DNA of 36,940 bases from a virus. The position numbers and the translations under genes were made by a program. Positions 1 to 36,725 of this stretch are shown piece by piece. Within the stretch, counting starts at the first letter, position 1; every line of letters begins with the position of its first letter. The notes under the pieces are model-generated. The model was given only the letters and a program-made list of their open reading frames with translations, searched no databases and was not told where the DNA came from. The stretch is from positions 1-36,940 of the IMG/VR virus record IMGVR_UViG_3300033182_000109, one strand, 5' to 3'.

Positions 1-801
1 ACGAATTTTATTTTCGTCTTTTAAACGTCTTACAGTATTAGCAAGTTTTTGTACAAGGCTATGCTTAACACCTAAGTTACTATTAAGTTCTATTTGAATG
101 TGTGGCTTAGGATCTGCATCTAAGCGTTCAAAAAGTTCCCAAGTACTCTTATGCATTAAGGGCTCTCCACCAGTAATGCGTAAAATGTTTAGCGTTTTGC
201 TTACTTCAGGCCACCATTTCCACCATGCATCTACATAGGGATTTTCTTCTTCCTTCTGATAGACCTTAAACCAGTCTATGTCTTGCCGGTGGTCGGTGCT
301 CGTGTCGTACGGACCATATTGTTTGATTTCATTCCAGTATCTGCTCGAGGCTTTTGGATGACAGTAGCCGCACTTAAAGTTACATTCATTCGAGAAACTA
401 ATTTCGATATATTCAGGGTTGACATTATAATTAAATCCATTCTTTTTTATTTCTTCTAAACGCTGCGGAGTATAGATACTCGCAGTCTTAATATGCCTGT
501 CGCTGATGTAATCCTTTCCCATTGCTTCTATCTTCCAACAATAAGAACATCCTTCAGGCTGCTTGCCTTCTAACATTTGCCTACGCTGATCTTTCTTTTC
601 TTTTGTATTGTGTAATGCACTTGGATCTACTGCAATCTCTTCCAAAGGAATGGAGTGAGGTGCAGGATGATAACACGAGTGCGTTTCGCCTGTCTGTAAA
701 TAAATTGTAGTGTGATGCCATTTAGCCATACAAAACGTAGAACTAATCGCTGCATCTGTAATAGGAAGTATTTCCTTTATCTTAATAAGCTCGTTATTCA
801 T
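1..801 (-). CDS. Radical SAM protein with N-terminal twitch/SPASM-like Cys cluster (partial, C-terminus off the left edge)
   Basis: The frame is open from the ATG at 801 to the window edge, giving 267 codons with no stop. The radical SAM cluster motif C140-x3-C144-x2-C147 (ECNFKCGYC) is clear, followed by the SAM-binding GGEP motif at 211-214. Before it lies a second Cys/His set, HSCYHP (C43) and GCSYC (C85, C88) with KIE after it, joined by an R-x-x-ML-x-GK-x-P segment; this arrangement is typical of twitch/SPASM-type radical SAM proteins that hold an auxiliary Fe-S cluster. The enzyme should cleave S-adenosylmethionine to start a radical reaction; the substrate is unknown. Its ATG overlaps the stop of the upstream glycosyltransferase by 4 nt (ATGA), so the two are translationally coupled. 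That context suggests glycan or peptide modification, which is inference. The family is secure; the function is not. Confidence 0.88.
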   Translation of the reverse strand, partial: MNNELIKIKEILPITDAAISSTFCMAKWHHTTIYLQTGETHSCYHPAPHSIPLEEIAVDPSALHNTKEKKDQRRQMLEGKQPEGCSYCWKIEAMGKDYISDRHIKTASIYTPQRLEEIKKNGFNYNVNPEYIEISFSNECNFKCGYCHPKASSRYWNEIKQYGPYDTSTDHRQDIDWFKVYQKEEENPYVDAWWKWWPEVSKTLNILRITGGEPLMHKSTWELFERLDADPKPHIQIELNSNLGVKHSLVQKLANTVRRLKDENKIR

Positions 802-1694
802 CTACGCTTTCTTATTACTCTTGGTGTATTATGATATAGTGCTTTAAAGAAGTGGCTACCATTTGCATCTAACTCTGCAATTTCAATGCCAAGTTCTGAT
901 CTTAACAAATCGCCTTGTCCTTCGATGGCTCCTAACAAGTCTTCTTCATCTAATATGTCTTTACTTTCCCACTGTTTGTTTAACCAAGTAAAGTCACGCA
1001 CTTCTGCATGATTCCAATCTGTTAACATAGTCTTAATAAGACCTTCGCGAGCACCGTGAATGCTCCATAGACCATTTTCTACGTCAGCACCTACACTACA
1101 CCAAATTCTTAACCTATCAAAGTTTTGCCACCAAGTCTCTTTTAAATCTGTTACCTTAGTACCTTGGTCTAAGCACATTTTAACACCTTCACGGAATCCT
1201 GCTCTCCATGCCTGCCACGGTGTTGCGTTTGTAAAGCTCTCCGAGTAGTTTTCATTAAACTGATAATACTTGTCGTCAAAGCAAAACTCTACTAAACCTT
1301 TATCATCACCGTCTACTGAGTTTTCATGAGTACGCATATTGTGGACAAACTTTCTTGTCCACAATTTTAATCCGCCATTACCGTACATGAGACCGTTAAC
1401 ATGTACTTTTCCACACCAACTAAAAACGTGCTCTGGCGTTAATCCTAGTTCGTCTAAATCTATTTCAACATTAAGAAAGTTTGGATCAATGATATTATCA
1501 GCATCTACTGTAACAAAATACTCTGTTTCACTCATATCTGCACAGACTTTGTGCGCAGCGTCACTACCTTCAACTCCGTGAACACGTTTTGCCCAAGGTA
1601 CTTTTTGACATAGATCTGCATAATTCTTTTCTGCGTTTGGTTCGTCATAACTTAAAAATATTATGTCCTGATCTACTATTCGTATCTTACTCAT
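798..1694 (-). CDS. GT-A-like glycosyltransferase (GT2-type)
   Basis: This 298-aa protein starts like a nucleotide-sugar transferase, with a beta strand (IIFLSYDEPN, 11-20) and then VTVDADN at 61-67. D64-A-D66 is the DxD motif that binds metal and sugar nucleotide in GT-A enzymes. Conserved-looking stretches follow: WCGKVHVNGLMYGNGGLKLW near 93-112 and AWRAGFREGVKM near 162-173. No signal peptide or membrane segment is evident, so it should act in the cytoplasm. Similar proteins, as I recall, recur in marine T4-like phages near other glycosyltransferases. The acceptor could be phage DNA, a virion protein or host surface glycan; the sequence does not say. Its start (SD AGAGGAT) overlaps the upstream gene by 8 nt and its stop overlaps the radical SAM start. 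Confidence 0.8.
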   Translation of the reverse strand: MSKIRIVDQDIIFLSYDEPNAEKNYADLCQKVPWAKRVHGVEGSDAAHKVCADMSETEYFVTVDADNIIDPNFLNVEIDLDELGLTPEHVFSWCGKVHVNGLMYGNGGLKLWTRKFVHNMRTHENSVDGDDKGLVEFCFDDKYYQFNENYSESFTNATPWQAWRAGFREGVKMCLDQGTKVTDLKETWWQNFDRLRIWCSVGADVENGLWSIHGAREGLIKTMLTDWNHAEVRDFTWLNKQWESKDILDEEDLLGAIEGQGDLLRSELGIEIAELDANGSHFFKALYHNTPRVIRKRR

Positions 1695-2262
1695 ATATCC
1701 TCTTTAACTGATAAGTGTCGAATCGTTTTGACGTATAAACACTAAGTGGCATGCTTACTTCTTCAAAAGGCATCGTGAATGGTATTATATAATAGTTATC
1801 GACTACTGCTCGTCCAAAGTCTACAAACAGAGTTTTATACAAAACGTTTGGGTCATTTTTTTCAGTAACGCTAAACATTAAATTTGCATTTAGACTGACT
1901 CCTTTAGATTTAAGATTTTTCTTAAATTCACTTCCAATTTTTACCTTCCAGCAAGTATTTGGAATATCTTGAATTACCAACACATCTGGATCAGTGTCGT
2001 CAGTATCTATCACTTCGTATATTAATTCGTTTACTGAGCAGTTGTCATAAACAAATTCAAATCGTGATACAAATTCTAGACTTTTAGTCTTAGGATCAAA
2101 CTGTACGATATAATTCTTTGCTGGTTCTACACCTTCTAAAATATTAATTACTTTGCTTAGAGGAACGGTAATATAACTAGTAGTTTCATCTACTTCGTTG
2201 CCAATACTAATAACATCTCCTGTATCTTTGTTAAAAGACACATACATCATTTGTTCAGACAT
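1687..2262 (-). CDS. Unknown protein in the glycosyltransferase cassette
   Basis: A 191-aa protein I do not recognise. It looks soluble and acidic, with alternating beta-type strands, a DTDDTDPD acidic turn near residue 90 and a single Trp in the NTCWKVKIG segment near 104-112. There is no signal peptide, membrane helix or catalytic motif that I can name. The ATG at 2262 lies inside the 3' end of the preceding glycosyltransferase (16-nt overlap, shared ATGTCTGAACAAATGA), and its own 3' end overlaps the next gene by 8 nt, so it is certainly part of the same translational unit. A role as an accessory or binding protein for the neighbouring transferases is only a guess from position. Its beta-rich look would also allow a small structural protein. 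Confidence 0.75.
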   Translation of the reverse strand: MSEQMMYVSFNKDTGDVISIGNEVDETTSYITVPLSKVINILEGVEPAKNYIVQFDPKTKSLEFVSRFEFVYDNCSVNELIYEVIDTDDTDPDVLVIQDIPNTCWKVKIGSEFKKNLKSKGVSLNANLMFSVTEKNDPNVLYKTLFVDFGRAVVDNYYIIPFTMPFEEVSMPLSVYTSKRFDTYQLKRIYE

Positions 2263-3077
2263 ACTTCATACTTTCCTATTATATTATCAGTTACAAAATC
2301 ATCTTCTGTATAGTGGAATACCGTAGTTTGTAGATGGTTTCCTATCTTCAGTTTTAAATCATCTGTTAAGTAAACACCAACACGATTTTGCCATTTAGTT
2401 ACACCTTCTTTCCAATTCTGTATTGCTGGTTTCATATGTACTAGCATCGGCAAATCTTGTCTAGCGTTTGTAATTTCAGTATCGATATCCATAATCTTTG
2501 CAGCAATGGCACAAGTAATGTCCATGCTTGCTGTTTTAGGAAAATAACTTTTACAGAAGTGTCCATAAAACAATTCCCAATTGTTATTGATAAGTTCTAC
2601 CCATGCATAATATTCTTTACATTTGTCGCATTTTTTAAAGTAATGTAAAGTATTATATACATTTGGCAGATTATTTGCAACAAATGCTTTACGATAATAA
2701 TTGTCAGTAACTAGTTCCTGTCTGTATGTAAATACCCGGGTTGGATAATATAGATCATAGTTTTTAAAAAATTTCCATAGATAATCCAAGTCCTGTAATA
2801 CAAGTACGTCTGCGTCTAAAACAATAGTTTCTTCGTATGGAGTCGCATGGTACAATTTCCATCTATGTTCTGTTTGAAATCTACTGTCTGTATTTTCGTA
2901 CCAAGGAATAGGAATTATTTGATCAAATACCCATTTATATCCGTCTGGAACATCATCGCATGTAACGACACTGACTGGAAATTTATTTTTTGATGCATGT
3001 ATGCTCATTGCACACAGGTATGCTTGTTTAACATACTCTTGGCCTTTAGCATATATTACAAAACCCTTATTGCTCAT
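2247..3077 (-). CDS. GT8-like glycosyltransferase
   Basis: A 276-aa protein. The frame extends to a TTG at 3080, but the ATG at 3077 sits better behind the AGGTG ribosome site, so I start there. The N-terminal strand GFVIYAKGQEYVKQAYLCA resembles the nucleotide-binding start of glycogenin/GT8-like enzymes, and IVLDADVLVLQDL carries the D88-A-D90 metal-binding motif followed by the typical VLxxDLxxLW continuation. It transfers a sugar from a nucleotide donor; donor and acceptor are unknown. It is a distant paralogue of the gene immediately upstream: same fold order, and the same ET-LD-D-V core. It overlaps that gene by 11 nt. No membrane segment is visible. Confidence 0.75.
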   Translation of the reverse strand: MSNKGFVIYAKGQEYVKQAYLCAMSIHASKNKFPVSVVTCDDVPDGYKWVFDQIIPIPWYENTDSRFQTEHRWKLYHATPYEETIVLDADVLVLQDLDYLWKFFKNYDLYYPTRVFTYRQELVTDNYYRKAFVANNLPNVYNTLHYFKKCDKCKEYYAWVELINNNWELFYGHFCKSYFPKTASMDITCAIAAKIMDIDTEITNARQDLPMLVHMKPAIQNWKEGVTKWQNRVGVYLTDDLKLKIGNHLQTTVFHYTEDDFVTDNIIGKYEVCLNK

Positions 3078-3951
3078 CAATGCACCTATTTAAACTAAAC
3101 TTATTCATAACGTGAAGATTGGCGTTTTTGATTTTCATTAACGTGTATTCGCCAGTATAACCTTGCTTTTCTAACAGCATTAATATGTCATTATTCTTAA
3201 TTTGCCAGCAAATGCTTTTGTCTGTTGCAAAATACAGCGTTCCTGGCATAGGTTTAGCAAAATCACCTTCTTGGTATCCATTCATTATGTGTATAGCAAT
3301 AGCAAAACTATAATCATTACGATAGTAAGGAGTATTAATCTGAAACATCCTATCATAGTGTTTCCAATTTTCTTGTATGTGCTGTAATAGATTAAAGAAG
3401 ATTTTATTTTCAACTGTCTTTCTAAAAAATACACAAGTTGCCCAATAAAATTTTACTGACGTATCAGATACACGATCAAATATTCCTTCTCTATCAACAT
3501 CTATTAATTCATATGAAATATCGTAGATTAAGAAATCATGTTCTTGATCAAAACAGTATTTAAAAATATCATTGCATATAACAACATCTGTATCTAAAAT
3601 TAATGTCTCGTCATAAGGACTAAGATCATATGCAAGTGTGCGTGTTTCATTTTTAAATTGTAATTTCTTTTCAACTAAACTGCCATCAAAGAACGTGCGA
3701 ATGCCGTGGTATTCTGTTTTTGATAGCGTAGTATCTTCTTTTAATTCGTCTTCTTTCCAAACAATAGATATGATCTTATCGAATACATCCGTTGCATCTG
3801 GATATTCATTCAATAAGAATTCAGTACTATCTGTTACGATAGTAGTCGGAAGTCCTAAGAATTGTTTTACACGCTTTGCTAGAAACAGTGCTTGTTTACA
3901 GTAATCAATTTGGGCATTATTACGAGCAAAGACCAGTACGCCTTTACTCAT
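3067..3951 (-). CDS. GT8-like glycosyltransferase, paralogue of the next gene
   Basis: A 294-aa protein beginning GVLVFARNNAQIDYCKQA, a nucleotide-sugar-binding type start, with ETLILDTDVVICND at about 115-128. D120-T-D122 is the DxD motif. The layout (N-terminal strand, about 75 residues to the DxD, then FFRKT and the HIMNGYQEG segment) parallels the 276-aa protein encoded just downstream, so the pair probably arose by an old duplication. The long gap of sequence divergence suggests different donor or acceptor specificity (inference). It starts at ATG 3951, overlapping the upstream 117-aa gene by 8 nt. It is probably cytoplasmic. A role in modifying DNA, virion or host glycan is equally possible from what can be seen. 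Confidence 0.72.
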   Translation of the reverse strand: MSKGVLVFARNNAQIDYCKQALFLAKRVKQFLGLPTTIVTDSTEFLLNEYPDATDVFDKIISIVWKEDELKEDTTLSKTEYHGIRTFFDGSLVEKKLQFKNETRTLAYDLSPYDETLILDTDVVICNDIFKYCFDQEHDFLIYDISYELIDVDREGIFDRVSDTSVKFYWATCVFFRKTVENKIFFNLLQHIQENWKHYDRMFQINTPYYRNDYSFAIAIHIMNGYQEGDFAKPMPGTLYFATDKSICWQIKNNDILMLLEKQGYTGEYTLMKIKNANLHVMNKFSLNRCIDEQ

Positions 3952-4297
3952 ACTCTACCAATTTCTCCACGCTTCTGTTTTTACGCAACTTTTCGTACTC
4001 TGCATGATATTCGTTTGCTGCTGTAAAATATGTATTGACAATTTCAACTGCAAAATCATTTAAATCTTTTACCATTACCGGTGTTTCGTTATCGTCAACT
4101 AGAACAATATCTTCATCATTGCCGCGTTCAACTAACATATTAACAAAAGTTATAAGATCCTTTGTTACAGTAAACTGGCCGCCACCGTGATAATAAACAG
4201 TTTGTTCGCGATAACGTTCTTTAAGAACACGTTTTTGATTGTTTAGAGTTACCATATAATTGGAAAACTCTAGTGCTTTTTCTAATCTTTCATCCAT
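3944..4297 (-). CDS. Small unknown protein, first gene of the accessory operon
   Basis: A 117-aa soluble protein with no family I can name. The N-terminus (1-30) and C-terminus (about 80-117, AANEYHAEYEKLRKNRSVEK) look helical and charged; the middle contains GGGQFTVTKDLITFV and an acidic DIVLVDDNETPV stretch. The start at ATG 4297 is set by an AGGGG ribosome site 6 nt upstream. It is the first gene after a consensus sigma-70 promoter and is coupled by an 8-nt overlap to the glycosyltransferases, so it is likely expressed early with them. Small leading genes in such operons can be regulators or adaptors, but there is no helix-turn-helix I can point to. Confidence 0.75.
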   Translation of the reverse strand: MDERLEKALEFSNYMVTLNNQKRVLKERYREQTVYYHGGGQFTVTKDLITFVNMLVERGNDEDIVLVDDNETPVMVKDLNDFAVEIVNTYFTAANEYHAEYEKLRKNRSVEKLVEYE

Positions 4298-4303
4298 AAG
4301 AAA

Positions 4304-4338
4304 CCCCTATTCATGCTATTATTATATATGAATAGGGG
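4304..4338 (-). terminator. 11-bp inverted repeat: hairpin terminator and/or operator around a -10 box
   Basis: CCCCTATTCAT (4304-4314) and ATGAATAGGGG (4328-4338) are perfect reverse complements separated by 13 nt. In a transcript coming from the structural genes the hairpin ends in a GGGG arm followed by UUUCUU, as expected for a weak intrinsic terminator 15 nt after the 339-aa gene. At the same time the dyad centre (4321) falls on the -10 hexamer of the sigma-70 promoter, and the left RNA arm lies upstream of the expected start site, so for that promoter it can only act as DNA, for example as an operator. The right arm also carries the AGGGG ribosome site. The two roles are not exclusive; neither is proven. 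Confidence 0.6.
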
Positions 4339-4349
4339 CACTATGTCAA
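4321..4349 (-). promoter_or_regulatory. Consensus sigma-70 promoter of the glycosyltransferase/radical SAM operon
   Basis: On the minus strand TTGACA (4344-4349) and TATAAT (4321-4326) are separated by exactly 17 nt: both hexamers match the bacterial housekeeping consensus perfectly. Transcription should start near 4314, leaving a leader of about 16 nt that already contains the AGGGG ribosome site of the 117-aa gene. This is a host-polymerase (early-type) promoter placed directly after the late tail genes. The inference of early timing comes from the promoter class only. Confidence 0.82.
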
Positions 4350-4352
4350 GTA

Positions 4353-5372
4353 TTATTCGAGTGTATTTGTTGTTGCAAAACTTGGGTTGTTTACTGCTAC
4401 ATTTGATCCAGATGCTCTACGAGTTGACATTGTTATAGTAATATCTGCGGTTATATCTTCGTCAACTAAAGGACCATATGGTGGAGGTGGGCTCGGAACT
4501 GGTCTATCACCAGCATCATTATCCGTTAATGTTACTTTAAATTCTATAACAGAACTGCTGTTCTCTTTTGCTTCTACCTTATAGACGTTTTCTGCATATA
4601 CGCCAGATCCAGATTTTGTAAATATTTCTTGATATGATGTTGTTAAATCAGAGTTACCAATTGTACTGCCTGTTCCACTACTTGCTGTTGTTGCAGTATA
4701 ATTAAAGCGTATAGCGCCTGTATTTGTAAGCATGCTATTCCAGTCTGTATCTTTGGCGCCGCCACCTGCTGCCATAGAACCTGTAACACGAATTTCACCA
4801 CCGGAGTTAAAGAAATAACGTCTATGGTCTGCATCTGTAAATGTACAAGTAAACGTCATATCAATAGTACCATTCCATGTGCTAGTTCTAACATCTGTTG
4901 CAATATCTGCTACAGTTTGCTGGCTTGCTGCAATGCTAAATTTGCTCGATTCTATTGCAGACATCGCTGAAAGATAATCATTGAAGCCGCCTTTTGTGTT
5001 CTCACCGTCGAACGTATAAGATCCGTTAACTGCATAAGTTAAATCTGTACCGGTTACATCTGCACCAATAACATTGCCATCCCCTGCTCCAGCAGTAGTT
5101 TCGCCAGAAACCTTATATAAAATAGCAGAAATATCGTTGCCCGTTTGGTGAGTGTATGCTTTGTTCATGTCATCATAAAGATCTCTCATGAATTGTGCTT
5201 CAACCGTATCACCATCTCCTGCACCTGGACTAGTTGGAGGAGTTACTTGGCCGCTGCTAAGTGCTTGGCCATATCCATCTTCACCAGATCCAACACCAAG
5301 GATGTTGCTTATTCTTCCTTGTAATGTATTATACTGTGATGCTGTAATTGTATCACCAACATTAACTGCCAT
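4353..5372 (-). CDS. Probable virion structural protein (fibre/tail associated)
   Basis: A 339-aa protein that I place with structural proteins from position and composition rather than from a named domain. The N-terminus (VNVGDTITASQYNTLQGRI) is of a type I associate with structural proteins of marine T4-like phages. The body is Gly/Thr/Ser/Ala-rich and beta-prone, with short GAGDGD and GAGDGN turns at about 50 and 97, and a Pro-rich segment VPSPPPPYGP near residue 291-300. No Cys pair, signal or membrane helix is evident. Its ATG follows GAGGA, and a perfect late promoter TATAAATA ends 26 nt upstream, so it can be expressed independently as a late gene. It closes the structural block, just before the inverted repeat. 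Fibre tip, adhesin or decoration protein are all possible. Confidence 0.7.
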   Translation of the reverse strand: MAVNVGDTITASQYNTLQGRISNILGVGSGEDGYGQALSSGQVTPPTSPGAGDGDTVEAQFMRDLYDDMNKAYTHQTGNDISAILYKVSGETTAGAGDGNVIGADVTGTDLTYAVNGSYTFDGENTKGGFNDYLSAMSAIESSKFSIAASQQTVADIATDVRTSTWNGTIDMTFTCTFTDADHRRYFFNSGGEIRVTGSMAAGGGAKDTDWNSMLTNTGAIRFNYTATTASSGTGSTIGNSDLTTSYQEIFTKSGSGVYAENVYKVEAKENSSSVIEFKVTLTDNDAGDRPVPSPPPPYGPLVDEDITADITITMSTRRASGSNVAVNNPSFATTNTLE

Positions 5373-5398: not shown

Positions 5399-5406
5399 TA
5401 TTTATA
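5399..5406 (-). promoter_or_regulatory. T4-type late promoter TATAAATA
   Basis: The minus strand reads TATAAATA, the exact T4 late consensus, ending 26 nt before the ATG of the 339-aa gene. The TAA stop codon of the preceding 500-aa fibre gene (5404-5402) lies within the motif. No -35 element is expected, since late promoters are recognised by gp55-type sigma with the sliding clamp. Confidence 0.75.
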
Positions 5407-11486: not shown

Positions 11487-11494
11487 TATTTATC
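11487..11494 (-). promoter_or_regulatory. T4-type late promoter GATAAATA
   Basis: The minus strand reads GATAAATA, ending 19 nt before ATG 11467. The TAA stop of the giant gene (11492-11490) is inside the motif, the same overlap seen at 5399-5406. It gives the fibre genes a transcript independent of the 15-kb gene upstream. Confidence 0.72.
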
Positions 11495-14400
11495 GTGGTA
11501 GATCCGTTGTCTTGTCTAGCAAGAAACGAGCTATGTCTGAATCACTTTGAGATAGTGATATTCCTGCCGGAGACCACGATTTACCTAGTTTTCTAATTAT
11601 GCTAACCTTTAATCCTTCATCTGGTGCAGTTGCTAGTGTCAAAACATTACCGTTAACTGTAAATTCTTCAGCATGTGTTTCGTCTCCTTCCGGACTATCT
11701 TGTGCAATTTCTTTATTATAAATTTCAACTGCATCTTTACGCAATCTGCGGCCACCAACGAATACTTCAATTAAATCACTCGGTAAACCAAATCTCATAT
11801 TAAATAGACCCGAATCAAACGGTAACTCAAACGTTGATGTTGTTCCGTCTGCTGTAATTGTTATAGTTTCGGTCTCGTCTTTATAAGGAATGGTAGTATC
11901 TGCACCTTGTTCTATAAGAGTAGAACCTGCATCATACACTTCTTTAACACCAGTACCTAAAGTTCCTCTACGTAGTTGATTTAAAGTATTTCCAGTTCTA
12001 TTAAAGAACTCAATACGCTCTCCTTCGATGAAAATTACGCCAGGTTGTTTTGCATCGTATTCCGGCTCTGGTAATCCATTACCGTCGACTAGTTCAATGG
12101 TTTTATCGTACCAATTTAAATCTTCTGCTAGTGTATATACATCATCTAGGCGCTTATAGTGCGTTCTATTGAGCATATCTTTAAACTGTCTCCAACCAAA
12201 TTTATTTGTTACTGTTTCACCGCCAAAATGGATAACTTCAATTTTATCATTTGTACTAGGAGGCGTAACCAATTTAACATAACGTCTGTTATCTGTTAAA
12301 CTATAATCAATGCTAGGCGTTAATAATGTACCATTAACTGCTATCCACACGTACTGCGCATCTCTTACTTGCTCTCGTAGAGCTATTATACCTCTTTCTA
12401 ACAGTGCGAAATTATAATAGCCAGGTGTTCCATAAGTCATTTCAGTCTTTTCATCAACTTCCAATGTCCAACGTTCAATGCCTTGACTATTATGATTGCT
12501 AAACTGATATACTGTTATTATATCATTATCACTATAAGCATTATTCAAGTATAGAGTGTTCGGTGTGCTAACAAACTCATTGCTGCTATCAAAGTAACCA
12601 AAGTTATAATCACTACCGGACATAACAAATACTTTTAGTTCATCACCATCTTGAGCTATTCCTCTTTCAAGTGTAACTGTACTTCCTGGCTGCGATGCTG
12701 GCGGTAAACTAGAATCAAAACTACCTGCACCTTCAAACGACCATTCTTGTAGATATTCTAATTTTCTATCATTTAGATATACTTCTAAATCATAGTAGTT
12801 TAAACTTGCAACAGGAACTTGTGCTAAATCTAACTGGTATTCACGCTGGCTACCTGTAATAGTAAATTCTTGACTATATCCTGCACTTAATACTGTTTCA
12901 TTAACCTTAACTATTGTATAAAACTGTAGTGGTTCCTGTGCAAACGGTCCGCTCGAATCTGGCATGTCAAACATTGTTGTACAACCATCTGCTACAAGAG
13001 TATCGATTCTAACCTGGCTGTATTCAACATTTACATCTCCGCCAACTGTTATCATAACACTGATTCGAGCACCATCTGCTGCTGGTGTAGGAATTTTTAC
13101 AACAAAATTATTTGGATATTCATAAGAGCTGTCTGATTTAATTAATGTTGTTTCTACTACTTCTCCGTTAATTGTAACAAATGAATCTGCGTTATCTTCC
13201 CAACGTGCATTTGTTAAGAATTCAATAGTTGCACCATCGCCTTCAAATGAAGTGATTTCTAAAATTTCAGCCGCCGAATTCTCTAATGTTACTAAACTAA
13301 CAGCGGCGCCTGATGCAGGCGGAGTAACAAATTTTACTTTTCCGGTTGTATAGTCGATAGTGTAATCTGTTACAAGACTCATTCTAAGATTGTTTACTTT
13401 AACAAATACACCTTCTTCTTGTACTGGTATAGTTCCAATGTCATATTGTGTAGTTACACCGTCGCCTGTATAATTTCTAGCAACGATTTGGCTTGACCCA
13501 CCTCTTGGTTTTTCGTATACTGTAATGTCCACTGTGTCTAACACTTGTCCAGGAACGACTTCTTCCGGTCCTTTACTAGTTGTAGGAGTAACAAATCCAT
13601 CTCCGTCGATGTTAATATCTGCTGCTGTTAAACCTGTAGCAGTTTGATAAGCAATGTCGCCGCCTTGTATTAAAGTGTCGTAACTGTCAGGGTCTGGTAA
13701 GAACGAGCCGTCTGATGTTTTCTTGCGAACAATAATTACAACTAAGTCTTCATCAACCTGTGTAGATGTAGGAATATTGTATTCGTCTAAGAATATTGTA
13801 GTTGTTGCTCCGTCTCCTGTTAACGGTAACATTCTTGCTGATGGATTAAACTCTGTTCCTATTGTTGAACCGTCCCAAAGAGGATCATCCATTCTTTCAT
13901 TTCTTACAAGAATGTTGTTAATATCATAGCCTAATCTATAAACATTATATTCAACTCCATCTTCGAGCGGTTTACTTAATTCAATACTAACTGTAGAACC
14001 GTCTAATTTGAAGATCTCATCTTCAAACGCAGTGTCATATATATCCCAACCTTGTGTAAACCAAGGTACTGAATCCCAACCAGTAGTGCCGCCAAATTCA
14101 AATGAACGAACTTCTACGCCACCATAGTCAACACCGTCCATTAATTGGCCGAGTGTTTTACCAAACTGATCAGTAGTTGGTTCATATGCTAAATTAATGC
14201 GATCCTGTGCATTAAGCATTTTAAGATCTTTATAATATTCAACACGTAATTCTTGACCGCTTTCTGGTGGATCAATAAATTCTATCTGTCCTAGGTATCG
14301 ATCGTAACCCTTAGATTGATCTAATACATTCGAATACGTATATCTTCTACCCAATACCTCATCATTGTCTAAGTATACAGCAACACGAGTTGTTCTTAAG

Positions 14401-17400
14401 TCCATTGGCCATAATAACTTAAACACTTCCTTATTACCAGTAGTTGCAAATGTTTCTGTTGTATCAAGTGTCACAAATTCATACGTTCCAGATACTCTAT
14501 CAAACTTCATCACTGTATGAAGTGTTCTAATTGGAGTTTCACCAATTATTGCAACCGCTTTTGCTTCGCTTCCAGTTGCTTCAATATTTCCGTTTATTAT
14601 AACTGTAGGAGCACTTAGATACCCACTACCTTCAGAAGTAATAGTAATTGCATTAATTGTTCCATTTCGTCCTAACGATGCTTTTGCTTTTGCACCTGTG
14701 CCGCCGCCGCCGGTTATTTCAATAACAGGTATTCCTGTATACCTAGCACCTGGGTCAGATACTTCAATACGCAATACTTTATATCCTACATTATTGGCCC
14801 AAGTTTTGTTTGGATAAATGTCAAGGTCTGCATTTTCTTCTACTAAAACATCGTCAATAACTTTAACAGTTTGCGGGATAATTCCTTCAAATCTATCAAC
14901 GTATCTTGCAGGTAAATCAAAGTCAGAAACAACAGATCCCGTACCTTCTATCTTTTCGTACGAACTTAGATATTCGCGAATCTTAGTCTTATAAGGTTTA
15001 ACTTCAAGAACATAATCTTCATAACTTGATAAATTATCATTTTGGAAGTTTGTATGCTGTTCTAATTCACCAACATTGTGTTGTGCTTTTACAAAACTAG
15101 TTTTGAACGCCCAGTCAACATAATTTTGTTCAGAGAATACGTAACGCAAACTAGCAAAGAATAATTTGTTATATTCTATCTCTAGTTCGTCAACAAATAT
15201 ATTATCTCTTAATGTTTCTAAAATAATACGTGTTTCAGTAGACGGAACACTATCAAACAATAATGCATCGTATGAAGTTTCATCATAACCGATCAAACTT
15301 GCTGACGCATCATATAACGTATTTTTAAACTGTAATGTACCGTTTTGGCGGCCTACTGTTTTATAATTTACAGAATAATCTGCTCCTGTTTGATCGTCTA
15401 CTTTTTCAAGCAGTAACCATCCTCCGGTTCCTACCGTTTCAATCTTAACTATATCTCCAGTAGTATCATTAACCGAATCTAAATTATAGGAATAATCAAT
15501 TAAATGATCTATTTCCGTAAATTTACTATACCCAGTATCGTACCAATCAGCATATTCCCAGTATAGAGAAACGTCATAAGACTGACTTTCAACTCTGATC
15601 CATTCTTTAGCAACTGAATCTCTTTCATATAAAGTCCATTTACCATTTAATGTTTCATCGTTGTTAACAAGGACTGTAAATCTTCTAACAGTTAATCGTG
15701 TGTTTGAATCATAATACTGTCCGCTATTTTCAACGTTTGCTGCTATAACGCTTCCAGTATTATCAATCTCTGTAGTAATAACAGCATTCTCTCCTGTTCC
15801 AAAAACAGTTACCGTAGGAGGATTGGTATATCCTCTACCTGCATTGGTTATATTAACACGCACAATTTTACCGTCTTCAATTATCGGAGTTAATGCTGCT
15901 TGTTGTGCTTTAGCAACACCTACAAATTGTAACTCAATGTAAGAATCGATTGCTCTATCATATAAATTGCTAGTTGCTAATGGTGGTTCTTCTCTTTGCG
16001 TTAACGCTGAAATATCTTTATCGTCTATGATTAATGTATCAATTAAAACGCTATTAACTCTGTCAATTAATTGTTTTAGTGCTTCCGTTCTATTAATAAA
16101 CCAACCTTGTCTTGGAGAATTAAGAATACCGTATTTTTCTTTTAGACTCAATTCCGGAGCAGGTACTTGTCTATTTCCAGCATCATATCCTACTAAACTA
16201 TCAAACCATTTTGCCTCAATGTCTCTACTAGGTTTACTAGACTCTAACCCTTCTGTTATAAGTTGATATTGATTGTGTATGTTAATGTTTTGATCTTCAA
16301 TCTTCCAGTATTGTATGCTAAGTGCAACATCGTCAGCACGAATTAAATCATTACAATTATGTAAAGCAAATTCTGTAGGACTAATAAAACTTACATATCT
16401 ATAACCTTCATTATCTGGATCTGCGATTAAGTTTGCTACTGTCTGAGCGGACAATGTTCTACCTTCTACACTAGGCAATGTAGTTTTATCTTTAACCCAA
16501 TAATAGAAATAACTCTTAAATGTCTTAGTTGCGCTATCGTAAATACGTTTAGTGACATACTGATCATCACCATAACGACTTGTCCCTGTAATACCCGCTG
16601 CAACACCATTTTCTGTTCCGCTTAAATCATCCCATTCGCTCGGCAAATAAGTTGATCTAACCCATTCATAAACATCTATGGTATTAACCGAAGAGAATGA
16701 TTTGTTCCAGTTATTTGTACTAAAGATTACATTTCCTTGGTAAGGATTAATATATTTTGCATTTGTTAAATCCCACCATAGTTTACCAACTTGATCGTTG
16801 CCCCAGCCATTTGTATCGTATGCTGCTGGATCAAAATAAGTCTTAAAGGATAACTCTTGATCCGCTAAACCTGCAATCTTTCCTTGCAAGATATCAATGT
16901 AATCTACATATTGTATCAACTCGTTTGTTTTAACATTATAAAGCATTACACGTTTAATCTTGTTCACGTCAACAGTATCTTTAGTACTGCGTAAAACATT
17001 CCAAATGGTAGTATTATCTACGATTCTAAAATCGGCTACAGTTCCTTCTCTTGTAGGATTGTAATTTAAACGAGGCATGCCTACATATAAATGATTGTTT
17101 GATAGCAAAGTATTTCTGCCAAAATATTTGACCATTTCTGCATTAACTTCATCATTAAAATCAAAATCAAGCATATGACCGTATAATAGGGTATCGTCGA
17201 TACGCTGATATATCTTAACTGTTCCTGCGTCTTTATTATAATTCTTAAATTCTGTAAACCCTCTATCAAAGGTCGTTGGAGAATCATTCTTTGAAGCAGT
17301 AGGACTTAGTATGTAACCTTCTAACGGCTCACTGTAAACATCAAATGTTGTAGTTATGTTTGCATCTCCATTTCGACTAGAGATTGCAAGTCTGTTACCA

Positions 17401-20400
17401 TCAAATTGTACTTTATATCCAAAGTATTCTGCTCTATCATTATCACTAGAATATAGTTCTTGAGATAGAACAAATCTTCCATTTACTTGTTTATATACAT
17501 AAACTATGCCGCTATCGATATCCTTAGTGTCATCTAGTGGTGCACCCACTGCTAATACTTTTCCGTCGGCGCTCAATGATACACTAGTTCCAAAATCAAC
17601 AAAGTTTACCGGTGCATGAATTGTTTGCGATAGTTCATATTGCCCAGTATAGTTTCTGTACACAGCAATAGCAGGACGTTTAGAATTTGCATATATTGCA
17701 GTTGCTACAACAACTTCGCCGTCTGCACTAACGTCGAAGTCTGTAGCAAAATCTACTAGCAATTCTTGATCAAGAACTACGCTATCAAATGTATCAAGTC
17801 TCGAGCTATCATGGACATATATTTCTTGATCGTTTGGCATATAGCCTATATACGATCTAGACCCTTCAATTAATGCCCAGTCGCTACCCGATCCTGGTAA
17901 AGTTTCATACGGATTGATAAATGTTTGTGCCTGATATAAATTATTATCAAAATATACAATGTCGTGGCTATAATAAGTTCTTTCTTCGGAAAATACACCC
18001 TTGTATTCTTTATCTTTACCTAAGTCCCAAGTATAGTCATATCCATTTTCCTCCCCGTACTTAATGACGTAAATTTTTCCAGCGTTAATTGTACTATCTT
18101 CTGCGCCTTCTGTTTTAACAAACAATCTATAAAAATCATTTAGTTTACTTAATTTTACATCAGTACCTAAACGCTTATTATTTGCTCGTTCAGGTATAGT
18201 AAATGAATTAATCTTTATAAATTGTCCTACACCTCTTCTTTCAAAGATATGATACAATCCTTCATTTATTAATCCGCTTACTGATCCAGAAGAGGCCGCC
18301 GGAATATTGAATACTTGTTCCCAGTCGTTATTATTTTCTGATGGTACACTCGGCGATCTAGGTATACCTTGAACTATGTCAGTATCGTATAACCAATATT
18401 CTGCATCTAAAATTGTATAATATTCGTCAGTTAATGCAGCATTCGAAGGACGAGTCAAATCAATATTTGACCCGTTATCTATTACAATGAGTTTACCAAT
18501 GCCTGCACTATCCAGACCTAAACTACGTGATTGTATCTGGCCAAAAATACGGAATCCAGCACTAGGATCATAAAGAGGATCACCAGACCCATCTGCTAAA
18601 AATTGTATTTCTCTATTTTCGCCGAACAAGTTACCTTGTGCCCAATTACCAGATACGTTTTTAACGTAGATTCTAATGTTCTGTGTGTCAAATCTCTGGA
18701 AGAATGTTACTTCTGCTGTTCCAAGATTTGTTACATCCTGTACGGTTAATCCCACTTTAGGTTCGATATATTCGCCTGTAGGAACATATGTTTTAGTTAA
18801 TTCGATGTCAATATAACCATCCCATAAATCATATACTGTTTGCTCACCATTAATACTACTTAAAGGCAAGCCGATCGTAGACGGATCTTTCCAAGGCAGG
18901 TCATTTAATGGTTCGTATAACGAAGTATCATATGTATAGTCATTTGGATCTACTGTTGTAGGATCTAAGAATAAGAAATTTTCACCGCTAGTGTGGTCTT
19001 TCTTAACTCTCCAATAGAGATTAGAAAATATGCTAGTTACATATTTTAAAATTGTATCTTCTTTATAAACAACATCCTGTTCCCATTCTGCATTTTCAAA
19101 TAAAGGTAAAGAATTATAAAATAGATTAAATTTAGAACCAGGAGATAGCACATCAGTATACGCCTTAGGAGATCTAATAACCCACAGTGGTGACTGATAT
19201 GTTCCTGCTGCCAGGCCAGGAATACCTTCATATGTTAAAACTGTAACTTGACTATTACGAGTATTGTAACTAGATAATGCTGTTGTAGTATAATCTAAAC
19301 AATTATAATATGATCTGTCAGTGCTGTCGCCAGGACCTTCGTATTTAGTAATAACATCTTGTATTACAAACCCTCTTCCTTGGTCAACCGTATAAGTTCC
19401 TACATCATATTCAGGAGTTCCGATCAACCAATATCCATTGTAATAATCGTCAACTCCAGCAGTTTGTTCTGTTGGTGCAACAGTTACATACTCACCAACA
19501 TATTCGCCAATTGTTGTAGTTAAAGACCCTTGTAATCCAAAAGAACCATTTACATCTTTAAGATATATCGTAGTATTTGCAGTTACGGTACTAGAATCCG
19601 ATGGATTAAATGTGTACGCAACCGTACCAAAGCCTCCTGCTACTTCAACAATCTGTCCTTCTAAAGGAACGGTATTTGCTTCTTGTACATATAAAATAGC
19701 ATCAATCTTACCTTTAATTGTTAAGTATCCGGTAAAGAAGTCGCTATCTAATTCAGGAATGTTACCTCCAAACGGTTGTATCTCATCCGTAGATTCTGCA
19801 CTTTGATTTGCAAAAGAATATTTGTTCCATTTAGTTTGTATCACATCATCAAACTTAGTACCTTCGTACATACTTGTAGGTGCTTTTATTAATATGTGAT
19901 CAGTAAGCACATTTTCAAAAGGATAATTACCTGTTAAAATTGTCTTTAACTCTTCGTCATCGCTTTCAGTTAGTGCCAAACTTACTAATGTAGGAGCAGT
20001 AGCAAAAAAACTATTAAATTCAATATTATCTACTTCACCATCAATGCGTTCTTGCGCTTTCCATAACGAATCTTGATATCTTACTATAGAGTTTGTTCCA
20101 TAATTTTCATCAGGTACATAATCACCAGTATATAAAGTTTTTACATTTGATGCTGCCGGTGAACCTACTGCTAGGAATTTACCATCTGACGATATTGTTA
20201 AACTTGCGCCGAATCTCTCTAGGTCATCAGCCAATCCTTCCTCAGGAGTTATTTCTTGCATCAGTTGATACGAACCGCCGTTACCTGCTCTAGTATAAAT
20301 GAAAACTTTTCCGTCACCGTTATCAGGAGCACCAATTGCCAGTACTGTATTCTTGTTATCAGCAGCCAATGCTGTTCCATAACTATGATTTACTCCTAAA

Positions 20401-23400
20401 TCGTTGTTTGTAACTATTTGATGTTCGTTGAATCTATTTTTATTTTCTAAAACATTCCAGGCACCTGTACCAATATCATCAATCCATAATCTATTCAACG
20501 GAGTAGGATTGTTATTTTGCAATAAAATATTGGCTTCTTCAACGTTTCCTACACGTACACCTAACAGTCTTGTAATCTTTCCTTCAATACCACTTACACT
20601 GCTTGATATTGCAACTGTTGTTTGTATCTGAATCGTTGTACCAGATATGTCTAAAATCTTATAGAAGTTATTGACTAACCCGTCTACATTGTAAACACCG
20701 ATAATATCGCCTACAACTAAATTATCAGGAGTTGTTTTTAAGGTTAATTTTACTATAGTAGCAGATATTTCCTCTCCTGAAACAACCGTTAAATCTGTAT
20801 TAACATGAGTATATACATTCCATTGTAAAGAATCATTGCCTACCCAAATTGTATCGCCAATGCTACAAGTTAAAAATGCTATTCCTAAAATTGCATCATA
20901 ACTTTCTACGATAAAGTCAACATCGTCAGGATTTACATATCCACTGTTCTTAACAAATGTTTCATTAACAGTAGTACTTGGAAACGGTGCGTGGTCGTAA
21001 TCTCTAGGACTTAGATATGCCTGATACGGTAATATTCTATATACTAAATCCGTTTCATCGCCTGTAACACTGTTTACTAATTCAAAACTCTGGGGCTCGA
21101 GACGCATTTTAGATTCATCTAAAATATATTCTACTTCATCAAACCCATCTGCCGAACCGTACTGTCCTACCTTAATTGCCCATTCTTCGTAAAACTCTAA
21201 ACTATCTTTATTTGCTGATCCTAGTACATCAAACAATTTATCAAGTGCATTGCGAGTACCTTTATCTTGAATCATACCTTGATAGAATTTATATTGCGAT
21301 ACATCATCATTAATGATGTTTGCTAGATATCTTCTATTCTGATAACCAATTAAGTGTTGTGCAAACTTTTGTTGCTCTAAATCAAAATTGTCAGTGTCTA
21401 AATCATAAAAATCTGCAAATTGATTTGTCTTATATTCAAAATTAGGAATCAAACCCATTTCTGGTTTTTCGTCAAGCCTTGCCCAATCGTTTGCATTAAA
21501 GTTTTCAGTTCCAGAAATTTTAGTTCTGGCTGTATAATAAAACTCTTTGTATTTTACAAGATCACCAATAGCATAATCAGTCCAAGACGTCCATTCTGTA
21601 ACTTTAGCATTATCAAATATAAATCCAGGAATATTAATCGAACCGTCCCAGTCAGTTGTTCTGTAACCTAATACACGAATACGTTCTTGTCTATAACCGG
21701 GCTCCTGATCATAAATGACATCACCAAACACAGTTGTATTGTCAAGAATTACAGCATGTTCTTTTTGGACTAAAGATAAGCGAACAGCAAAAATTCCATC
21801 TTCAGTAATTTTTGTCTTGAGAATAAACTCTTGAGGATTTTCTCTCGTTAAAGAAACATACTCCGGTATTAACTTCTTGCCGTCTGCTTTTAACAATCTA
21901 TAACCATAGAATGTGTCATAAATGTCGTCTACCGCTGCATACTTAGATATAAATTTAAGTTGATACGCACCCGGACTTAACGTAATAACAGAACCTGCTT
22001 TCCAATTTTGTGTAGTCCAAAACATGAACTCCTTAGCACTAGTATTCCAGTCAGCAACAAACTCATCCTCTGGCGAATAGTAATCAAATACAAAACCTTG
22101 TTGCTCTAAGTAATGGCCATAACCTAACATAAAATCTACAACATCTTGTATTGTTTTTAGTACAGAGCCATATGGAAGAACGCTTACCTTAGATTGGAAT
22201 TTCTTACGGAAATATGCATCATGGCCACCAACCAATGGCAATGCGGCTAACTTGGTAAACTTAGTCCCGTCAAAATCTGTTCCACTAGTATGCGCTTCAG
22301 TAGCTCTATAATAATCATTACCAAAATCAACAATAGTACCCTTTGTATACAATTTATTTGGTGTCCAGTACACAAAGCTCTGGCTGATGCCGCCAACATT
22401 AACTTGCGGATCGCTTGCTAGTGCGTTTGGTTTGTTATAATAAAAATATGGTTGATCATTATTATAACCTTTAACAATAAATCCGTAAGATTGCTTTTCT
22501 AAAATAACTCCGCTATAATAAACATTCTTTATAGGTACACTCTTGTTTAAAACAATTTTATAATTTTCGTCAGGTACAAACACGTTACCTTCGTTCAGCG
22601 GAGTTCTGCTGTCAAGGATTAACTTAAACTTGTCTTTTGATGTAAAGCCTGCAAGTTTAAAGCCTATCTGATTTGTAATTGCTTGTAAATTATTAACATA
22701 AGATTCGTATGTTACTGTAACATTTGATGCTAGGTAATCGTACACATAATTTATGTAACCAGATGTATATGTTCTATCCTTTGCATTTATTGTATTTGGA
22801 AATTGTAAGTCTGTTAAACGCAACTGTCTGTTTGGTGCATTATAGATTATATCTCCTACAAGACCGCGTTTTTGACGCAATCTGTCAAATCCAGTAGACA
22901 ATGCTCTTGCAGGCTGGTTCAATAATATTGAAGTTAATAATGCAAACGGAAACTCTGAATTGCGGCGCCATGCTGTTTCTACAGGACTTTGATCACCGTA
23001 AGCAAAGTTGTCATTTAATCGTGTAGTTCCGTAATCTTTAACATATCCGCTTAAAACAGGACTGATTAAGTTACCGTCTTCGTCAACTGGCAAATGTGTA
23101 GTCAACCCCGGACGAATATATTTTTCGTTTACATAAGGTAGTTCGCCTGGCTGTCTAATTATACCGCCTTCTAAATCTTCCCATAAAATAAAGTTATTGC
23201 TAGTATATGGGGCTGGGCCATATACTTCTTCCCACCAGATAGGTTTAATAGTATACCCTAGCATTTCCCAAGGATGGCTATGAGGACGATCGGTGTCATA
23301 AGCGTACTTGTATACTGCTCTCCAGTAACCTCTTATTGGATTTCCTAAAGGACTAGTCATTCCTACGTGATTAAACGTAAACGGATCTTCTCTTAAATAA

Positions 23401-26400
23401 TCAGGATTTGCAGTATAATCTTCGTCTGTTAATTGCAACCACTGTACAAAGTCTCCGATCATAGTATTATTAACATTATCATATAACAAGCCAGTTTCTC
23501 TATGTTCCGAAGCAACAAAGTTGTGGATATCAAATAATTCCGGATCGTAACTTACTTTTAAATTATTGTATATTCTTTTTTCTAATTCTAATAATAGATC
23601 ATCTCTATAATCGCCAAATGTAAACACAATGCTTCCGTCGTGTCCTTGTATCACTTCGCGGCTTTCTAAATACGTGTCGTCAATAAACGTAGTAGGCTCG
23701 TACTTAGGATACAAACCTAACTTAGTCGGAGTTGGCGGAACATAACAACCATTCGTTGTTTCGTATTCATAGATCTCAATAGTATCACCGATCTGCTTTT
23801 CTGTTGTGACGATAATAAATCCTTGATCGTTAAACGTGTAATCCTTATCGTGTAATAATTGTATGCCATTTTGATATACATGCACAGCCTTATCACTGGC
23901 AGTACTATTATCAAAAATTGCACTTAACGCAAAATATACATTATCTGGATCTTCGACTTCAATTAGATTATATTTTGCTGCGCCGAATGGCACCATGTCA
24001 GAAAAATAAAATGGCATGACCTTTGTTTTGTCTTTTACCATTTCAGTTAATATCTTATCTACATGTTCCTTTACAGGTCCACTATATCCTAAATCGTGTG
24101 CAATTTTTAAGAAGTTTCTTTTAAATTTACTGTATTCACGTCTAGCATACTTTAATGCCTTTACCATATTAGCATCTTTGTCAACAAGATGATATAAAGG
24201 TAAGTTAAGTGGGCACGAATGTTTAACAATTCGTTTACCGTATTTTGATACATTACCTAGATCTCTAAGATTACTAAGTCCAGGAAATGTTCCATTAAAG
24301 TTTTGGATTTCTTCAATTATAGTTCCTACATGGTCATTAACTTCGCCCAATGTAAATTGTGTTATATCTTCATTAAGTGGATTTCTTTCTAAGTTACTCG
24401 GTACTTCATAAAGTCCGTTGTTATTTTTTGGTGCAGACGAACGAGTCTTAATAATAATGTTATCGCCGGTAGTTAGACTACTTGTAAATTTAATAGAATA
24501 TCTCTGTTGAGAATCTACACTAAGAGTATAATCAGTATTTTCAAATTGCAAATAATTATTAACGTATACCTTAACCCACAGGTCTGTTAACAATCCGCTC
24601 TTGGTATAAACGTCTATAGGATAAGAAGTTCTTGTATTATCTACTATATACTGACGAATAACAGACTGCTGACTTAACGAATCTACTTTCTCCCAGCCAT
24701 TAATATTATCGTAAGAATCTCTTGCTGTATATCTTCTAAGATATCCTGAACCCGTAATCAATTCTTCTGTTCCAGATGCAAATGGACAATATGTCATTGA
24801 ATCAGATAACAAATCAAATTCAAATACAATATCGCCCACATTTTCGATGCTTCTATACTTTAACGGAAATCCTAACTCACTGTCAGTTGCACCTGATCCA
24901 ATAGCATAAGAAAACACTTCTGTTCCAGTAAATGTAGACGATTCGTATATCGTAGTATCTGCATAACTATTTTCTTCGCAGTCATAAACATCAAACAACG
25001 GAGGCTGGTTAATAGTTGTTTTATTTTGTGCAAGTACCCACTTGCTTCCATTAAACCAAAGCATTTTACCTGTATAGTTACTACCTTGTTTACATAATAA
25101 TGTTTCGTTTAGTAACGGAGTTGAGTCATCAGTTTCGACTAAAGATATCTGACGGTTATTATTAAATGTAAGGAATTTTACTTCGTATATTTTGCTTTGT
25201 ACTAGAGGATCTGGATCTGCTGTAAAAACAATACGCATGCCGTTTGTTAGATCTACTCCGTCAACGTTATAACCAGAGGCTCCTTCGATTGTACTAAATG
25301 CATCTTTAGTAAAATCGTCGATTAAATCGATATTTGCCTTAGTTTGTGTACCAAAGTTAAAAAGTTTCAATCCTGGTTCAAATTCAATAATAGGTCGTGT
25401 TGCTCTAGCAGTTTGATCTAACTCTGGAGTCTGACCGTTAAGTGTCTCTGCTAGTTCAATAACAGATTTATGGAACCATCTATTATACTTTGACCATAGG
25501 TTTCCGTCTGGGCTTCCACGATTAATTGTAATGTAATCTTTATTAATTGGATAACCTAATGCTTCAGAATATGGTAATCTATCAAACCCTTCATTATCAA
25601 ACTGTACCATTAAATCTTCTGTAAATGCACTAGGCACATTCAGTTCTTCTTCTGAAATTAATTTAATCTCAGAACCAACACCTTCAACATACCAAGCACC
25701 TATACCATATTTTTCAGGTATTACTGTTCCACCAAAAGAAATTTTCATTCCATTTGTTAATGCAAATCCGGAACCAGTAGTATAATCTTTCTTATTTAAA
25801 ATTTCTAATTCAACATTAATGAATGTTGCATCTGCTAAATCTTTAACTATTATATCGCCCGAAGCATAGATATCTTTATCGGACATATAATAAATTACAT
25901 CAGGTGTAGCAGCATCTAATGTAATCTCTATCGTACCTGTTGCAACGCTTTGTTGCGACACTTGCGAGGTTAAATTAAACGAAGTATCTAAAGACCACTT
26001 ATCAGCATCTTGTACAAACGTATCTCTTGATAAGTGAGTATCTGTTACTACATAGATACTTCCGTCAACTATTGCCTTTTCGCCTACATCATAATATTTT
26101 CCGCTAGTCCATCTATCTGCTTCAACTTTGCTAGTTCTAAATGAAATAGGATTGTTTGGAGCATTAATTTCAAACTTATACGTGATTCCTCTATACAAAA
26201 CAAGTTCGGGATTTTGAGTATTACCATCAGGTGTAAACACGTACCCATAGTTATCACCATTGTTAACTTCTTTAACTTTATACGTGCTTTCAACCTCAGC
26301 AGTTTGACCAATAACTTCAACAGTTTGAGGGCCGCTTGGCAACCAGTAATATTCACGGAAATTTACAAACTTATCCCAATCGATATGCGGATTCCATGCA

Positions 26401-36689: not shown

Positions 36690-36697
36690 TATTTAGT
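36690..36697 (-). promoter_or_regulatory. Late-promoter-like ACTAAATA upstream of gp48
   Basis: The minus strand reads ACTAAATA, ending 21 nt before the gp48 ATG; spacing agrees with the other late promoters, but the second base differs from NATAAATA. It is the only candidate for the long gp48-to-gp25 transcript in the 83-nt divergent gap and touches the -35 box of the opposite promoter at 36697. Confidence 0.5.
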
Positions 36698-36725
36698 TGA
36701 CTTTTTAAACTGCGTATATTATAAT
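36697..36725 (+). promoter_or_regulatory. Sigma-70 promoter of the plus-strand gene
   Basis: TTGACT (36697-36702) and TATAAT (36720-36725) are 17 nt apart: five of six and six of six consensus matches. Expected start near 36732, leaving a leader of about 20 nt to the TTG start. A host-polymerase, early-type promoter diverging from the late tail operon. Confidence 0.78.

Follow-up and report, generated by a model that had tools for sequence, protein, structure and literature searches.

What is the function of a consensus host-type promoter that lies against an inverted repeat, directly ahead of a small gene and immediately behind the tail genes of a phage? The question is posed by a 46-bp element on the minus strand of a virus record of 36,940 nucleotides (hereinafter the window, that is, the entire stretch of DNA that was analysed). 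The window is linear, encodes T4-like baseplate proteins and carries all its large open reading frames on the minus strand, including, in the tail region, a single open reading frame of 5100 aa (11490-26792, minus strand). The nearest annotated relatives of the baseplate genes belong to jumbo phages, among them Sinorhizobium phage Phosso, Agrobacterium phage Atu_ph07, Erwinia phages and CBB. The element, which is present exactly where a preliminary description of the window had placed it, reads TTGACATAGTGCCCCTATTCATATATAATAATAGCATGAATAGGGG from position 4349 to position 4304 and precedes the ATG (4297-4295, minus strand) of a gene for a 117-aa protein (Table 1). The perfect sigma-70 promoter claimed in that description is indeed there: TTGACA-N17-TATAAT is the sole 12/12 match in the window, where dinucleotide shuffles predict 0.105, and a sigma70-type promoter is identified by match score in 57 of 99 related lineages, with TTGAC of the -35 box kept in most relatives. 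The two arms of the repeat are complementary at 11 of 11 positions and enclose a loop of 13 nt; the window holds one inverted repeat of 11 bp that has five or more G/C in each arm and a loop of up to 30 nt, against 0.03 in shuffled sequences. The placement of the promoter inside the repeat holds for the -10 box, which lies between the arms, but not for the -35 box, which is outside, and the arms are centred near the -10 box although not exactly on it.

Table 1. The 46-bp element and neighbouring genes, with positions in the window
Feature	Position	Strand	Remarks
T4-late-type promoter TATAAATA	5399-5406	minus	TAAATA 32 nt before ATG of the 339-aa gene
Upstream 339-aa gene, tail-fibre region	4353-5372	minus	presumed source of the read-through transcript
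-35 hexamer TTGACA	4344-4349	minus	starts 3 nt past the stop codon of the 339-aa gene
Upstream arm CCCCTATTCAT	4328-4338	minus	within the -35/-10 spacer; only in read-through RNA
-10 hexamer TATAAT	4321-4326	minus	in the hairpin loop; spacer to -35 of 17
Predicted transcription start (+/- 2 nt)	4314	minus	inferred as 7th nt past -10; the downstream arm begins here
Downstream arm ATGAATAGGGG	4304-4314	minus	in read-through RNA and in the promoter's own RNA; covariation
Shine-Dalgarno (SD) sequence AGGGG	4304-4308	minus	inside the downstream arm; predicted to be paired in read-through RNA
SD-ATG spacer TTTCTT	4298-4303	minus	6 nt between SD and ATG; terminator tail of the preliminary description
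117-aa gene	3944-4297	minus	putatively under the control of the element; AF2 model with pLDDT 90, no named family
Downstream genes (294, 277, 191, 298 aa)	798-3951	minus	each overlaps its neighbour by several bases; order kept in relatives
Probable radical SAM protein gene	1-801	minus	next gene; CNFKCGYC motif read by eye; runs off the window end

The upstream 339-aa gene is preceded by a perfect match to the T4-type late promoter (TATAAATA), which is compatible with the late tail transcript envisaged in the preliminary description, and five structural genes in the window have TAAATA 25-32 nt ahead of their start codons. Among 492 open reading frames of the related loci, this motif occurs 25-34 nt before the ATG 73 times, compared to about 2.6 expected, and all 10 large contigs tested encode a match to a gp55-like T4-type sigma factor. 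In CBB, an ATAAATA motif has been reported before structural genes (PMC5259590). As for near-consensus host-type promoters, 31 of the 36 that precede open reading frames in the related loci are at the 117-aa gene; the gene order around this gene is kept in the relatives, and the promoter fills most of the intergenic gap of 36-75 nt in front of it. The overlaps between the downstream genes make translational coupling possible. The product of 277 aa has a match to phrog_1903 and a weak one to Mannosyl_trans3, and a probable radical SAM gene follows this small enzyme-like operon behind the tail genes. The 117-aa protein showed no tblastn match in phage records, no convincing family in PHROG, Pfam or NCBIfam, and no matching fold in the PDB; a Foldseek search of BFVD produced one close, uncharacterised match (A0A6J7WG19, TM 0.81/0.91) along with weaker matches to DUF4376 proteins, which we treat as a lead only. 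A relationship to T4 gp33 was considered as well, and nothing was found in its support.

Given that transcription is predicted to start where the downstream arm begins, RNA made from the embedded promoter would lack the upstream arm, so that, as the preliminary description had it and as the geometry bears out for the deduced start, both arms are present only in RNA that reads through from upstream. That description also correctly assigned the ribosome site to the element, with the SD sequence sitting in the repeat, but it missed the probable translational role, namely, that read-through RNA would hide the SD. In our view, the element is very probably an SD-sequestering hairpin with a promoter nested in it, an arrangement that would insulate the operon from read-through and make it dependent on its own promoter. 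Under this scheme, RNA from the upstream tail genes, assuming that read-through occurs, would contain both arms and fold such that the SD of the 117-aa gene is hidden; this gene would then be poorly translated from the read-through RNA and so, probably, would the overlapping operon, through the loss of translational coupling. RNA that starts at the downstream arm would keep the SD open. With a host-type promoter, as in the window and most of the relatives, the operon would likely be expressed before the late phase and stay silent on late RNA, whereas other lineages appear to employ a late-type promoter in the same place. The start site, read-through, the effect on translation and the timing are all deduced here from the sequence, and we infer the early and late timing of the two transcripts from the promoter type alone.

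The evidence bearing on this scheme was computed, comprising the sequence itself, conservation of pairing, predicted SD accessibility, promoter motifs and synteny. In the window, the sequence between the -35 box and the ATG folds at -18.1 kcal/mol as opposed to -5.8 with shuffled spacers, and a longer RNA across the element folds at -22.1 versus -12.1 kcal/mol (z -3.45); a search of Rfam 15 with the element yielded no match at the gathering score, only matches at chance level. For the comparison among relatives, the 117-aa gene was collected from 70 loci and then from additional ones, resulting in 43 + 56 = 99 distinct upstream regions from viral contigs. The letters of the arms change between lineages while pairing is kept, and the SD itself shows compensatory changes; the preliminary description had proposed to look for compensating changes across related phages, and by this token the arms are conserved as pairs. 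Pairing exceeded that of shuffled spacers at p<0.05 in 16 of the 32 sigma70-type lineages (Fisher 4e-16), in 11 of 23 sigma70-type lineages fetched later (3e-14) and in 17 of 24 further late-type lineages (6e-21), the p-values being guides inasmuch as the lineages are related to one another and the tests are not fully independent. When spacers were swapped between lineages, the energy changed from -9.3 kcal/mol for the native combination to -5.0 (z -10, 0/20,000 permutations), and the larger sets gave z -12.1 (55 sigma70-type lineages) and z -10.2 (31 late-type lineages); on average, such swaps cost 3.6-5.5 kcal/mol and the native pairing was never matched in 20,000 permutations. In the nearest clade, made up of the eight distinct sequences that are closest, both sides are altered in 5 of the 11 pairs, and covariation amounts to 0.224 compared to 0.126 +- 0.030 in shuffles (0/500), with slid controls at or below 0.097. 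Between the window and L007, three pairs differ, all of them compensated, one within the SD.

Chance pairing, whereby a promoter spacer of a certain composition would happen to complement the purine-rich leader, is the explanation to be weighed against these results. About half of the sigma70-type lineages individually fail to beat shuffles (for example, L017, L031, L035 and L060), and T-rich spacers pair to some extent with SDs even after shuffling, which is why SD pairing of at least 3 nt with the upstream arm, found in 43 of 55 lineages versus 58% expected, is only moderately in excess; in several lineages, the arm adjoins the SD instead of covering it. Nevertheless, the outcome of the swaps, the replication in lineages fetched later, the compensatory changes and the negative control, in which 20 further sigma70 promoters of these phages displayed little pairing (mean z -0.58, with 4 of the 20 passing p<0.05), render coincidence extremely improbable.

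Several variants of the element were observed. In L063 and L067 (around 8001), the -10 box of the promoter ends 6-7 nt before the ATG, and in this small clade the mRNA may be leaderless. No clear promoter motif was found upstream of the 117-aa gene in L151, where a long stem, CCCTCCTTATT/AATAAGGAGGG, extends over the SD and is followed by TTTTTA. Apart from these variants, L079 and L086, as well as L074, have a further host-type promoter whose -10 box is flanked by arms that pair; downstream of it, a GGCAATCCACTGCC stem-loop recurs together with CATCGGAG, and this may be a regulatory RNA in its own right.

A dyad that acts as DNA is expected to be equally good on both strands. In this family, the mRNA strand exceeds its shuffles in pairing by more than the complementary strand does (the difference has z -5.5 in the 55 sigma70-type lineages and -2.8 in the 31 late-type ones), and those arm positions that depart from Watson-Crick pairing have a GU:AC ratio of 25:5 versus 21.9:10.8 in shuffles; the stronger signal on the mRNA strand and the preference for GU over AC suggest that the conserved pairing acts as RNA. 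Strand asymmetry and the GU bias support an RNA role, with which an additional role of the DNA would still be compatible. The preliminary description had listed such a role among its possibilities, the element binding a repressor as DNA. The dyad over the -10 box would then be an operator, and the 117-aa protein might be its own repressor. The dyad is perfect, and I-TevI is a documented case of autorepression at a promoter (PMC2988022). The arm letters, however, are not conserved even among phages with 82-90% identical proteins, so that the dyad sequence diverges while pairing is kept; furthermore, the arms shift position between lineages, the pairing excess is on the side of the mRNA, and family and structure searches revealed no DNA-binding family for the 117-aa protein, all of which makes a repressor site very unlikely.

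The nested arrangement also agrees with the predicted accessibility of the SD. The predicted cost of opening the SD falls from 5.84 kcal/mol in read-through RNA to 1.50 when the RNA starts at the promoter, and for the window itself, from 12.15 to 1.27 kcal/mol; by these energies, the SD is paired in the former RNA and free in the latter. The difference exceeds 2 kcal/mol in 23 of 32 lineages; among 329 other genes of these loci, the share is 16%, the leader lengths being slightly different between the two sets.

According to the main reading in the preliminary description, the tail transcript would end at an intrinsic terminator overlapping the promoter. The stem in the window is followed by TTTCTT, the corresponding sequences in L002 and L007 are GGGGTTTTTT and GGAGTTTCTT, respectively, and L151 combines a strong stem with a T-rich tail. 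However, the T-rich stretch is the spacer between SD and ATG, the loop comprises 13 nt, the element is absent from the list produced by a terminator scan, and at least five T among the last 7 nt before the ATG are found in only 13 of the 55 sigma70-type and none of the 31 late-type lineages. Thus, the stem is kept among the relatives but the U tract is not, and termination as a conserved function is unlikely. Because the T-rich stretch is present in the window and its close relatives and not across the family, termination would be, at most, a local addition, possible within the window itself.

Concealment of a ribosome site in read-through RNA is not without parallel. The insertion sequences IS10 and IS50 are protected from external promoters in a similar way: a promoter is located near the inverted repeat, and read-through RNA folds over the ribosome site of the transposase gene whereas the element's own RNA does not, although, unlike the case at hand, the gene is at the end of a mobile element and there is no homology. 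The most relevant counterparts are the T4 genes e, 49, I-TevI/II/III and segB, together with mobE of Aeh1, in which SD-sequestering hairpins with an embedded late promoter have been described (PMC3014915, PMC2988022). There, as predicted here, read-through RNA hides the SD, and transcription from a promoter located within the 5' arm or the loop yields RNA without that arm, an arrangement that the window reproduces by its geometry, given the deduced start. T4 e, 49 and I-TevII yield the same signature as the element in the same pairing test; soc, a cited case of the mechanism, did not score in the fold test. The T4 layout is matched by late-type lineages, for instance L062, L277 and L306, with TAAATA in the loop. 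Apart from the different gene and phage group, the window differs from T4 in that its embedded promoter is sigma70-type, not a T4 late promoter, and is located in a late region, so that the read-through RNA would be late and the RNA made from the operon's promoter earlier, opposite to the order in T4; besides, lineages here differ in promoter class and yet keep the hairpin. A literature search that covered few subscription journals, aimed at SD hairpins of late phage operons that enclose a host-type promoter, returned only the T4 reviews PMC3014915 and PMC2988022.

The late-type TAAATA replaces the sigma70-type promoter in 31 of the 99 lineages, and the hairpin is usually kept. On the tree of the 117-aa protein (99 rows), the sigma70 label requires 9 changes and the late label 6, of which at least 4 for each label are on supported branches, where the labels vary with the motif thresholds chosen and the resolution obtained from 117 columns is poor; taken at face value, the tree needs several promoter exchanges. 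The sequence TAAATAGTGTATAAT, present upstream of the 117-aa gene in L140, L142 and L159, combines late-type and host-type -10 motifs and is a plausible intermediate of such an exchange. Elsewhere in the window, a second near-consensus promoter, TTGACT-N17-TATAAT (36697-36725, plus strand), points rightward and overlaps the late-type TAAATA (36690-36695, minus strand) of a leftward structural gene; a spacer ending akin to that of this promoter, TATATTATAAT, recurs in five loci (G001, G003, G004, G010 and G011), so this promoter, too, looks conserved.

In the late-type lineages, the genes upstream are presumably late as well, such that both promoters would be late and timing cannot be the general purpose of the arrangement; insulation from read-through seems to be a better description of the common function than a clock. 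There is, in our estimate, an even chance that the element is a family-wide read-through insulator of jumbo-like phages, with a constant SD hairpin in which the nested promoter was swapped between host-type and late-type several times, serving opposite temporal programmes, and with the T4 order reversed in the window. These observations suggest that T4's way of concealing a ribosome site in read-through RNA has a wider use than the delay of late genes: it appears to tie one operon to its own promoter only, whatever the class of that promoter. The element family offers many natural compensatory variants for testing, and within the same 46 bases, promoter identity and RNA structure appear to have evolved separately.
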